From: Lachnospiraceae bacterium GAM79
GTDB taxonomy: Bacteria > Bacillota > Clostridia > Lachnospirales > Lachnospiraceae
Assembly: GCA_020735665.1 (NCBI GenBank)
Contig: CP085928.1
Coordinates: forward strand, 620,001-684,000
Reading direction: 5' to 3'
DNA length: 64,000 nucleotides
The position numbers were made by a program, and so were the translations under genes. This document shows positions 7,635 to 32,600 of the stretch, in pieces. Below the pieces are notes generated by a model, which made no database searches, was not told the origin of the DNA, and saw only the letters and a list, made by a program, of their open reading frames with translations. Positions within the stretch are counted from its first letter, which is position 1. Every line of letters begins with the position of its first letter.

Positions 7635-7680
7635 ATATATACAAATGCCATGGCGTAATAGCCATGGCATTTGTATATAC
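7635..7680 (+). terminator. hairpin terminator after ftsZ
   Basis: Arms 7635-7654 and 7661-7680 are complementary at 19 of 20 positions around a 6-nt loop (GTAATA), with the GC core GCCATGGC. An A-rich stretch precedes the core and TTTGTATATA follows it. A weak T tract means the terminator role is likely but not certain. Confidence 0.6.
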
Positions 7681-26285: not shown

Positions 26286-26330
26286 AATAATATATAAAAG
26301 CTTATAAAGAAAATAATATATATGGCAGAA

Positions 26331-26520
26331 AGAAAAAGAAGACATTTGTCTTATGTAGTGACCTTACGAGGATTTCGTTGAGAGATGCATAGTGCCAGTA
26401 AATACGGGTGCCTGTTTGAGCTCGAAGAGCGAGTTGGCACAGGAGTATTTACGAATCAGGCATATGCATCGAACAGAAACCGCAGTAAGACATTATATAA
26501 GACAAATGTCTTCTTTTTCT
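26331..26520. repeat. large palindromic element between convergent genes (190 nt)
   Basis: Arms 26331-26360 and 26491-26520 pair along 30 bp with only two GU pairs. Inside, further arms continue the palindrome imperfectly: GATGCATAGTGCC against GGCATATGCATC, AGTAAATAC against GTATTTACG, and GAGCTCG against AGCGAG at the centre. The left edge is A-rich and the right edge T-rich, so it could terminate transcription from both sides. It lies 45 nt after the VanW stop and 19 nt from the CLC stop. No coding frame is credible. Confidence 0.85.
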
Positions 26521-26539
26521 TTTGTTCTATACAATAGAG

Positions 26540-29073: not shown

Positions 29074-29430
29074 ATGGATTATATAAAAGCATTTATTATT
29101 GGTGGATTGATCTGTGTTCTGGTTCAGATCCTTATGGATAATACAAAGCTGTTGCCGGGACGTATAATGGTACTTCTTGTCTGTACGGGAGCGGTTCTCG
29201 GTGCGATAGGGGTGTATGAACCATTTTTAGAATTTGCAGGCTGTGGAGCATCCGTTCCCTTATCGGGATTTGGATATAACCTCTGGAAGGGAATCAAAGA
29301 AGCGGTAGATCAGGATGGATTCATAGGGCTGTTCCGGGGAGGCTTTAAAATGGCAGCAGTGGGAACCTCCGCGGCATTGATCTTTTCCTATATAGCCTCA
29401 CTGATATTTAAACCAAAGATGACGAAATAG
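29074..29430 (+). CDS. spoVAE: stage V sporulation protein AE (AEB type)
   Basis: A 118-residue membrane SpoVA subunit with about four hydrophobic segments. Family features include AFIIGGLICVLVQILMDNTK and the glycine-rich CGASVPLSGFGYNLWKG. It follows spoVAD by 9 nt. No spoVAEA or spoVAF gene follows; this five-protein set (AA, AB, AC, AD, AE) is the usual clostridial-type reduction. Transcription runs into a large palindromic element. Confidence 0.9.
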   Translation: MDYIKAFIIGGLICVLVQILMDNTKLLPGRIMVLLVCTGAVLGAIGVYEPFLEFAGCGASVPLSGFGYNLWKGIKEAVDQDGFIGLFRGGFKMAAVGTSAALIFSYIASLIFKPKMTK

Positions 29431-29433
29431 AAT

Positions 29434-29662
29434 TAATCCACATAAAAGAAAGAACGCTGATGTTTATCCTATTATTACGCAAGACACTTTCGTTCTATCC
29501 TCGGTGTAACGGCACATAGGACAGCAAAATACGCTGTCCTATGTGCCGACACGAGTAACTGAGACCTTAGCGAAGCAATGCTGAGGTTAGTTCGAAGTTA
29601 CACAGAGTGGATAGGCTTGCTACATAACAGATAAACACCAGCGTTCTCTTTTATGTGTATTA
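29434..29662. repeat. large multi-branched palindromic element between convergent genes (229 nt)
   Basis: Outer arms 29434-29468 and 29630-29662 pair with two mismatches and a 2-nt bulge. A second stem pairs 29495-29510 with 29597-29614. Inside it are two hairpins: a perfect 15-bp stem 29511-29525/29533-29547 around AAAATAC, and ACCTTAGC/GCTGAGGT at 29564-29587. The result is a long stem ending in a branched junction. It starts 4 nt after the spoVAE stop and ends 13 nt before the stop of the converging PBP gene. No coding frame is credible. Confidence 0.85.
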
Positions 29663-29675
29663 CTCTTATTCTCTA

Positions 29676-32600
29676 TTACTCACCGTCCGAGCTTGTTTCA
29701 GGCTCTGCTGTAGGATTTGTAGTAGGTTCTGTAGTAGGCTCCGGTGTCGGAGGTTCCGTAGTAGGTTCTGTAGTAGGCTCCGGTGTCGGAGGTTCTGTGG
29801 TAGGTTCCTCTGTCGTAGGCTTGTCTTTCTTCTTGAAGACAGCCTTGATCGTATGATTTCCCTTTACCTTCGAGAATTTGTAAGAGGTTACAGCACCGAC
29901 GGAGCTTCCATCTACGATTACATCTGAAATGGTATATCCCTTATCAGGTGTGATATAGAAGGTTGTTGATTTGCCCTTTTTAACGGTTGTTGTCGGTGAG
30001 ATCGAACCGCCGCCTTCTGAAGATGAGGAGATCTTGTACTCTTTCTTTTCTTCCTCTGTGGTATCCTCCGTTTCTTCTTCCTCAGGATGAAGTGGACATT
30101 TTTCCTTTAAAATATTCTGATCGTATTCGAAGTCGGCATCAAGGATCTCAATCTTGCCATCGTCATCAACTGTATAATAATAAGTGGTTGTTTCTTTACA
30201 TGTGTTTGTTGCAGGCTTATGAGATTCATTACAGATCACAATCTTTTTATTACCACCACATTTCTTTTTTGGAACAGTTCCCTTTGCAAAATAATCTGTA
30301 ACTGTATCGCAGCCTTCTACCGGAAGAAGACCGGTATCCTTACAAACGGTTGCACGAACAATTCCATCCGGCATTTCGAATGTCTTTGAAGTATCTAAGC
30401 CTTTGACTTCTGTAATTTCATCCATGATCTTACGCCACATATTCTTATGATAGTTTCCTGCGGCAAAGTTTGTATTCACATCGAATCCTATCCAGATAGA
30501 TGCGGTATAGTATGGAGTGTATCCACAGAACCATGCATCATAGTTACTGGAAGTTGTACCTGTCTTACCTGCTGTATAAAGACCACATGAAAGGTTTGCG
30601 GCAGTACCGGTACCGATCGTTACTACATCATGCATTGCACTTGTTAATAACCATGCATTCTGAGGTGAAATAACTGCGGATTCTTCCGGCTTCCGGTTAT
30701 CGATCAGCAGGTTTCCGTCATGGTCATATACTTCTGTATAGAAGACAGGCTTGATATAATTACCTTCATTTGCGATCGTAGCATATGCAGCTGTGATCTC
30801 AAGATTTGTGATACCATCTGTCAGACCGCCAAGAGCGAGAGACTGGTTGATATCAGATTCAATACCGCCACTTGAATTTGTACGGCTCTTTACAAGAGTT
30901 GTAAATCCAAGCTTTAACAGATACTCGTAGGCAAGCTCCGGTGTAACATCGGTGATCGTCTTAACAGCAAGAATATTCATGGAATTCTGAATAGCCTGTC
31001 GGATCGTGCTTGGACCACGGTAGCCACTGTACCAGTTCCTGACTTCGCCGCCATTTGTATAGGTGTATGGTTCATCTTTGTATACTGTTGCAAGGCTCAT
31101 ACCACATCCGTCCAGTGCAGGGAGGAAAGCGGCAACGACTTTGAATGTAGAACCGGGCTGTCTGGTTGCTTCGGTTGCACGGTTAAAGGAACGATCTTCT
31201 GTCTTTTCACCACGACCACCGACGATTGCTTTTACCTGACCGGTTTCCTGATCCATCAATGTGAAGGAAATCTGTGGTTCAACGGTTACCTTATAGCTTT
31301 CGAGCTGTTCTTTGTATCCGGTCTCAGCAATCAGATGTGCTTTGTATTCATCAGCGGCAGCTCTTGCGTCATCCTCACTTGAGAAGATCAGGTCGAAAGA
31401 AGACTGTCCTTTTTCTTCCTGGAACCATGTTACCATCATGTTCTGACTGTAGTTATACTGTTCACCATTGTCATCTACGAGAGTCAGTGCATAGGAGAGC
31501 TGGTAACTGTCAGTTGGATAGTTGTCCTCATCATTTAATACAGTATCACAGATATCCTGAATCTCTGTATCCTGACAGGTATGAACTTGCAGACCGCCGG
31601 AGTAGATCATACTGTCTGCTTCTGATTTGGAATATCCCATTGCCATGAAGTCATCTTCCAGCTGGTTAATTACTTCATCGATGTAATAGGAGTTTATCTT
31701 TGTCGGTGATGATTTCTTTATGGATGATACCTTTTTGATCTCAGCATATACATCATCGGCAATTGCTGTATCATAATCTGACTGGGAGATCATGTTCAGC
31801 TCTGACATTTTATCCAGAACCATCAGACGTCTTTTTGCATTTTCTTCCGGAAATACAACCGGATCAAATTTGCTTGGGTTCTGAGGGATTGCAGCGAGAA
31901 CCGCACACTCGGAGATCGTCAGGTCTTTTAACTGTTTATTAAAATAATACTGGGATGCGGTTTCTACTCCGTATCGTCCCTGACCAAGGTAGATAGTATT
32001 CAGATAGTATTCAGCGATACTTTTCTTTGGCAGGACTTTTTCAATCTCAACAGCGAGATACTGTTCCTGAACCTTACGTTCGATCTTGTCAAACATGGTT
32101 TTCTCATCCAGACCGACATTGAAGATCTGGTTCTTGATCAGCTGCTGTGTCAGAGTACTTGCACCCTGATCGAAGTCACCTGACTGAAGACCATGGGCAA
32201 ATGCACGCATGATACCCTGAACGTCGATACCGTTATGTTCCCAGAAACGTTGATCTTCGATAGCGATAAATGCATTGACCAGATTTTCCGGAATATCATC
32301 ATAGTAGACATATTCGCGATTTGCATCGAAGCTTGCAAGAACTTTGAGTTCCTTGCCGTCCTGATCGTACAGGGTTGTCTGATATCCTTTCGGGATCAGA
32401 TCCTTTGCATTTACCTCCGGTGTATCATCCAGAATACCCTTTAGTGCACCGAAGCCGGCTCCGATACCAAGAACAATGATCGCCAGAAATAAGACAAGCA
32501 TTGCCTTGAACAGAGAAACCGTCAGTTTCTTTTTATTTCGGGGTAGTTTAGAAACGAGAGCTTTCTGTTTCTTTTCCACGCCCTTTTTGCTAAAATCCAT
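29676..32600 (-). CDS. class A penicillin-binding protein with repeat tail
   Basis: A bifunctional peptidoglycan synthase of 974 residues. After a basic cytoplasmic tail and one membrane helix (about 32-55), the glycosyltransferase-51 domain has EDQRFWEHNGID and GASTLTQQLIKNQ. The transpeptidase domain has GSTFK, SMN and KTGTTSSN. Beyond it lies a region with Cys pairs (GCDTV, KKCGG, CNES), then a module starting GGGSISPTTTVKKGKSTTFY that resembles InlB/bacterial B-repeat modules. A Pro/Thr/Glu-rich tail of tandem repeats follows. AAGGAGG lies before the ATG. The gene is transcribed alone toward spoVAE. Confidence 0.94.
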   Translation of the reverse strand: MDFSKKGVEKKQKALVSKLPRNKKKLTVSLFKAMLVLFLAIIVLGIGAGFGALKGILDDTPEVNAKDLIPKGYQTTLYDQDGKELKVLASFDANREYVYYDDIPENLVNAFIAIEDQRFWEHNGIDVQGIMRAFAHGLQSGDFDQGASTLTQQLIKNQIFNVGLDEKTMFDKIERKVQEQYLAVEIEKVLPKKSIAEYYLNTIYLGQGRYGVETASQYYFNKQLKDLTISECAVLAAIPQNPSKFDPVVFPEENAKRRLMVLDKMSELNMISQSDYDTAIADDVYAEIKKVSSIKKSSPTKINSYYIDEVINQLEDDFMAMGYSKSEADSMIYSGGLQVHTCQDTEIQDICDTVLNDEDNYPTDSYQLSYALTLVDDNGEQYNYSQNMMVTWFQEEKGQSSFDLIFSSEDDARAAADEYKAHLIAETGYKEQLESYKVTVEPQISFTLMDQETGQVKAIVGGRGEKTEDRSFNRATEATRQPGSTFKVVAAFLPALDGCGMSLATVYKDEPYTYTNGGEVRNWYSGYRGPSTIRQAIQNSMNILAVKTITDVTPELAYEYLLKLGFTTLVKSRTNSSGGIESDINQSLALGGLTDGITNLEITAAYATIANEGNYIKPVFYTEVYDHDGNLLIDNRKPEESAVISPQNAWLLTSAMHDVVTIGTGTAANLSCGLYTAGKTGTTSSNYDAWFCGYTPYYTASIWIGFDVNTNFAAGNYHKNMWRKIMDEITEVKGLDTSKTFEMPDGIVRATVCKDTGLLPVEGCDTVTDYFAKGTVPKKKCGGNKKIVICNESHKPATNTCKETTTYYYTVDDDGKIEILDADFEYDQNILKEKCPLHPEEEETEDTTEEEKKEYKISSSSEGGGSISPTTTVKKGKSTTFYITPDKGYTISDVIVDGSSVGAVTSYKFSKVKGNHTIKAVFKKKDKPTTEEPTTEPPTPEPTTEPTTEPPTPEPTTEPTTNPTAEPETSSDGE
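29703..29818 (-). repeat. in-frame tandem repeats coding the Pro/Thr/Glu tail
   Basis: Units of about 50 bases reading on the + strand as GTAGTAGGTTCTGTAGTAGG followed by CTCCGGTGTCGGAGGTTC recur with small changes. They encode PTTEPTTEPPTPE-type repeats. Such tracts can expand or contract, so tail length may differ between strains. Confidence 0.8.

Follow-up and report, generated by a model that had tools for sequence, protein, structure and literature searches.

Palindromic elements at convergent gene ends of a Coprococcus-like genome as candidate mobile hairpins inserted at terminator tips

The palindrome between spoVAE and a PBP gene

The window, i.e., the whole stretch of DNA that we analyzed, comprises 64,000 nt (positions 620001-684000) of a complete 2.96-Mb genome. 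The genome is Coprococcus-like, and uncultured Coprococcus (L281 and L282) are its closest named relatives at the spoVAE-PBP locus. The convergent genes at this locus carry the Pfam domains SpoVAC_SpoVAEB and transglycosylase/transpeptidase PBP, which agrees with a sequence-only reading that had named them spoVAE and PBP. That reading placed the palindrome 4 and 13 nt from the two stop codons; the distance on the PBP side is indeed 13 nt, while the one on the SpoVAE side measures 3 nt. The features of the locus and the second palindrome of the window are as follows (window coordinates).

29074-29430, plus strand: spoVAE gene, ending 3 nt short of the element (Pfam PF03862)
29434-29662, no strand assigned: whole palindromic element (arms and core) of 229 nt, family B in its two-hairpin form (fold, inverted-repeat analysis and BLASTN)
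29434-29466, no strand assigned: left locus-specific arm with an A-rich base at 29443-29451 and the stem GAACGCTGATGTTTA; interpreted as one half (the left) of a native bidirectional terminator
29467-29631, plus strand: family B core, conserved between copies (cmsearch score 62.1 bits, E 8e-15); BLASTN matches to other copies end at the core edges
29503-29552, plus strand: inner hairpin 1 with a perfect 16-bp stem (29510-29525/29533-29548), found at the same place in most B copies
29553-29607, plus strand: inner hairpin 2, restricted to two-hairpin B copies
29632-29662, no strand assigned: right locus-specific arm, complementary to the left, with a T-rich base at 29645-29652
29676-32600, minus strand: class A PBP gene, ending 13 nt past the element (Pfam PF00912 and PF00905)
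26329-26522, no strand assigned: second palindrome, family A, with its core at 26351-26501; a vanW-like gene and a clc gene converge on it

The RNA fold of 29424-29672 reaches -104.2 kcal/mol on the plus strand and -110.0 kcal/mol on the minus strand, whereas shuffled sequences average -51 and -55 (z = -11.3 and -12.3, respectively), and none of 200 shuffles reached this energy, which establishes the giant palindrome as real. Its outer arms pair over 29 nt without gaps and are 83% complementary, and the inner stem that had been described as perfect over 15 bp is perfect but 16 bp long. In a sliding fold scan, this palindrome and the one at 26329-26522 are the top two 250-nt stretches of the window. 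The neighbors of the second palindrome carry VanW/G5 and Voltage_CLC domains, and SpoVAD lies between both palindromes. The window also holds an ordinary long hairpin at 7636-7679, which has a perfect 19-bp stem, a 6-nt loop and no core.

Two families of repeated cores

BLASTN of 29434-29662 against the genome showed that the palindrome is repeated, with nearly all matches inside query positions ~37-197, and the matches of the second palindrome likewise lie almost entirely within its core. The two had been reported as unlike in sequence, and they are in fact members of separate families, B and A. The conserved, structured core of family B is ~162 nt, the core units of both families measure 110-165 nt without their arms, and the core ends of A and B resemble each other in a short ACTATWAT-like repeat. 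With covariance models trained on 28 copies of family B and 40 of family A we found ~55 confident copies of B and ~46 of A; these numbers rest on searches and on the DNA that surrounds copies (371 kb of the genome). Together, the A/B elements seem to be non-autonomous palindromic mobile repeats with ~100 copies in the source genome.

The cores show strong covariation, as 31 of 40 pairs in family A and 16 of 23 in family B had changed on both sides and none of 500 shuffles scored as high. Unpaired letters are conserved in the cores as well, and many copies adjoin unrelated genes. Rfam gave no gathering match in the window and nothing but spurious weak matches at the elements. A search of viral contigs with exact core patterns gave no match, and our literature searches did not find a description of the A/B elements.

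Position at gene ends

A facing gene is present for 80 of the 84 clear-armed copies, and the stop codon of this gene precedes the arm by a median of 9 nt. The gene orientation is convergent at 40 of 72 core-holding junctions vs. 2 of 90 core-free junctions of the same DNA and divergent at 3 of 72 vs. 27 of 90, where the counts are ORF-based with approximate gene calls and the DNA was chosen around copies. An A-tract and a T-tract at both arm ends, as in bidirectional intrinsic terminators, were found in 20 of 84 copies vs. 1.9 expected. The spoVAE-PBP arms display the same pattern, i.e., a stem with an A-tract and a T-tract after a facing stop codon.

The sequence-only reading suggested that the two palindromes share a role, and that a lack both of similar elements and of an excess at convergent junctions would speak against this. 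Such a lack is contradicted by the copy numbers and junction counts given above. The two palindromes do belong to high-copy families built on the same plan, in which inverted arms specific to the locus enclose a conserved core, and share the convergent excess. However, the evidence fits mobile cores that enter existing terminators, and what the palindromes have in common is then a target rather than a demonstrated function.

Arms that are private to each locus

The outer arms are locus-specific, resemble a host terminator and lie outside the repeated sequence. They pair within a copy and not between copies (mean left/right score of 28 vs. 10.5 across copies), and cores that are 85-90% identical carry unrelated arms. 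Only one pair among 78 copies of the source genome, L041/L043, clearly has arms in common. When 12 concatenated arms were compared with the genome, 11 matched their own locus alone and one locus had a partner 9 kb away. Capture of arms from elsewhere in the genome was therefore rejected at these 11 loci, and also at 7 of 7 loci of another genome of the family, G019. L095 (G000:228075-228226) and L361 (G000 ~218.8-219.1 kb), which lie 9 kb apart, are ~80% alike in arms and outer core and differ in their inner hairpins, as if the center had been exchanged or had diverged.

The median arm length is 24 bp in family B and 35 bp in family A, and the arms reach 62-107 bp in the family A copies L097, L096 and L044. 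The G+C content of the arms equals that of the flanks (0.39 vs. 0.41). At L044, the left arm repeats, in inverted orientation, the final codons and the 3' flank of the right-hand gene. At L096, the arms contain the ends of both genes, whose last residues are identical (EQE). Because long arms run into genes in this way, inverted copying is supported. Inverted repeats that have arms of at least 22 bp and lack a core were not found in the 371 kb, where plain terminators reach a stem of ~20 bp, and simple pre-existing long palindromes were thus rejected as targets.

The same junction in congeners

In four congeners, spoVAE and the PBP gene are also convergent and the element is absent. The spacers there measure 81, 82, 98 and 127 nt, and all of them hold a terminator-like hairpin whose stem is roughly 10-15 bp. 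The source-genome spacer is 245 nt and drops to 84 nt when the core is removed, and these joined flanks fold as a single hairpin of the terminator type, which has a tetraloop and an A/T-rich base (-31.2 kcal/mol, z -9.8). Removing arms and core together leaves ~17 nt of native spacer vs. 81-127 nt in the congeners. The congeners in this comparison of empty junctions are other species with genes ~70% identical, and the argument uses the exact spoVAE-PBP spacers, the statistics for all convergent pairs being too noisy from spurious ORFs. The single 84-nt hairpin is what one would expect if the core alone had entered a terminator at its tip, and it is the main support for the explanation preferred below. 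Most likely, a native terminator between spoVAE and PBP received the core at its tip.

Other genomes of the family

Model B matched 103 of 250 genomes of the family, sampled one per genus (~40% of sampled genera), and model A matched 9 of 150 genomes. BLASTN against the four congeners found family A absent and family B nearly absent. In some genomes the core is part of ordinary MITE-like repeats, and arms are shared: the core lies inside a ~272-bp repeat with arms common to ~50 copies in G138 and inside a 216-bp repeat with arms common to ~40 copies in G065. Copies in G031 share arms as well. Lachnospiraceae bacterium CE91-St56 has a clean insertion of ~235 bp relative to Eisenbergiella tayi, which consists of the core and both 62-bp arms.

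Most of the G065 copies that we checked (L169-L177) start at or next to the upstream stop codon, and the TAA of the element is the stop. Several of the genes upstream of G065 copies, which by eye resemble thrS, leuD and rubrerythrin genes, seem to be of full length. A target-site duplication is not recognizable; in G065, many copies begin at the TA of a stop codon, but the right end is inconsistent.

In G019, seven copies (L245-L251) have arms of 56-107 bp whose two sides are 91-99% identical. These arm pairs are mutually unrelated, each is found nowhere else in the genome, and their G+C content is 0.60-0.73 vs. 0.32-0.57 in the flanks. This suggests that arms may also be made or replaced during transposition. 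The outer edges of the G019 arms are sharp, mostly GGGA. Across the family, arms can thus be a host terminator, as at the spoVAE-PBP locus, sequence shared by the element, or private sequence.

Proposed apex insertion and template switching

The explanation that we find moderately probable is a non-autonomous mobile DNA hairpin whose core inserted at the apex of a native terminator, with arms kept or lengthened by template switching. The ~162-nt family B core would enter the apex of a bidirectional intrinsic terminator, and the two halves of the terminator stem would become the locus-specific arms. The combined structure is predicted to keep terminating transcription both ways, and this may account for its persistence at gene ends. 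Template switching during replication at the hairpin, with one arm copied onto the other, and not RNA selection would keep the arms and the core stems complementary and would have lengthened them in many copies. Insertion at the tip cannot by itself explain all arms, because those of 62-107 bp are too long for a native terminator.

A stem under selection as RNA is expected to pass through G-U as a favored intermediate. The arm mismatches read in the core sense comprise 68 G.T and 64 A.C (42:32 in the mRNA sense), and core mismatches give G-U to A-C counts of 21:14 in family A and 22:16 in family B; none of these ratios differs significantly from 1:1. Complementarity that shows no preference for G-U over A-C speaks for template switching at the DNA level and not for RNA selection. 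Parsimony on the family A tree, with ties resolved against double changes, counted 88 double Watson-Crick changes that each took place within one branch, whereas 22 changes led to G-U and 48 gave other mismatches. Template switching at hairpins is a described mechanism (PMC8794818), and it explains both the double changes and the arms that are longer than any terminator. Some RNA-level selection may act alongside, which is compatible with the wobble counts. Further observations count against the preferred explanation: in G065, G138 and CE91-St56 the arms travel together with the core, and L041 and L043 share arms in the source genome.

The arms might also have formed in one step, if a core came to lie downstream of a gene and, during this insertion, the adjacent flank was copied in inverted form onto the other side by hairpin priming. 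Arms that are unique per locus and absent elsewhere, long arms that occur with cores only, arm G+C that matches the flanks, and the gene ends within the arms of L044 and L096 are all in line with such copying. We still consider it unlikely, as the 84-nt core-less spacer is already within the range of the empty spacers and leaves no room for a duplicated flank, and as one-step copying predicts neither the terminator tracts nor the stop-codon position of the outer ends. Rather improbable, too, is an ordinary MITE in which arms and core transpose jointly and the arms differ through many small subfamilies. The common arms in G065, G138 and G031, the unit insertion in CE91-St56 and the L041/L043 pair are what this would produce. 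However, the single arm-sharing pair in the source genome, the 85-90% identical cores with unrelated arms, the seven long G019 arm pairs that are all unrelated and unique in their genome, and the residual spacer of ~17 nt are not.

The covariation, the conserved unpaired core letters and the position just past stop codons might indicate a functional RNA or 3'-UTR regulator with pairing kept by selection on the transcript. Against this, G-U is not significantly preferred to A-C in arms or cores, the element is missing from the same site in congeners, many copies lie by unrelated genes, and Rfam has no match, so we see very little chance that it holds. A REP/BIME moved by a RAYT (Y1) transposase is largely refuted and barely credible here. 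Such an element would be palindromic, extragenic, near gene ends and often in inverted pairs, as the A/B elements are, but the units of 110-165 nt plus arms are not the 20-40 nt of REP/BIME. The sole PF01797 match in the genome is a partial and decayed IS200-like (Y1) fragment (30/121 positions) at L201:1474-1851, downstream of a guaA-like gene; no core lies nearby, and RAYT/Y1 was rejected as mobilizer.

Beyond the spoVAE-PBP locus, apex insertion and template switching could be extended, tentatively and with some doubt, to the whole family: mobile hairpins would target terminator tips and then nucleate palindromes, one flank being copied onto the other until coding sequence is reached, which would leave each copy with near-perfect arms of its own, up to ~100 bp long.

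Relation to known repeats

MITE-like repeats such as Correia/NEMIS, ERIC and YPAL/RU-2 (reviewed in PMC2229807) resemble the A/B elements in being short, non-coding, palindromic, mostly intergenic and dispersed, and in encoding no transposase. The A/B elements also qualify as high-copy dispersed non-coding repeats. However, MITEs share terminal repeats, whereas the A/B elements of the source genome share their center and have locus-specific outer inverted repeats. As to terminal repeats, the core ends have the short ACTATWAT-like repeat in common, and the outer arms are shared in G065, G138 and G031 but not in the source genome. A target duplication was not recognized at A/B elements.

Like the stem-loop repeat families and REP/BIME (PMC2267715; PMC3733652), the A/B elements are extragenic palindromes that are frequent at gene ends, but their structured core is much longer and the genome has no intact RAYT. 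The template-switch (quasipalindrome) mutation that we propose for arms and core both makes and keeps perfect stems, and a single event produces double compensatory changes (PMC8794818); it is a mechanism of mutation rather than a mobile element. A further likeness concerns insertion that is tied to intrinsic terminator hairpins. Group IIC introns insert beside intrinsic terminators, on the 3' side of the hairpin, whereas A/B elements would lie at its apex. Unlike these introns, the A/B elements have no reverse transcriptase, and at 110-165 nt they are much too short for an intron ribozyme.

If our explanation is true, the A/B elements are an undescribed and widespread mobile element in a major gut family, and the terminator apex is a type of target that makes insertion nearly harmless. 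With ~100 copies in a single genome, the arms are natural replicates for the study of the origin and upkeep of long palindromes in bacterial chromosomes, and very strong covariation alone need not signify a selected RNA.

Two minor features of the cores were also seen. Closely spaced inverted core pairs, 250-400 nt apart, occur at L036, L039, L052, L062, L092 and other loci. In the core alignments of both families, GA/GA internal-loop motifs lie beside a short GCC/GGC stem and look kink-turn-like by eye.
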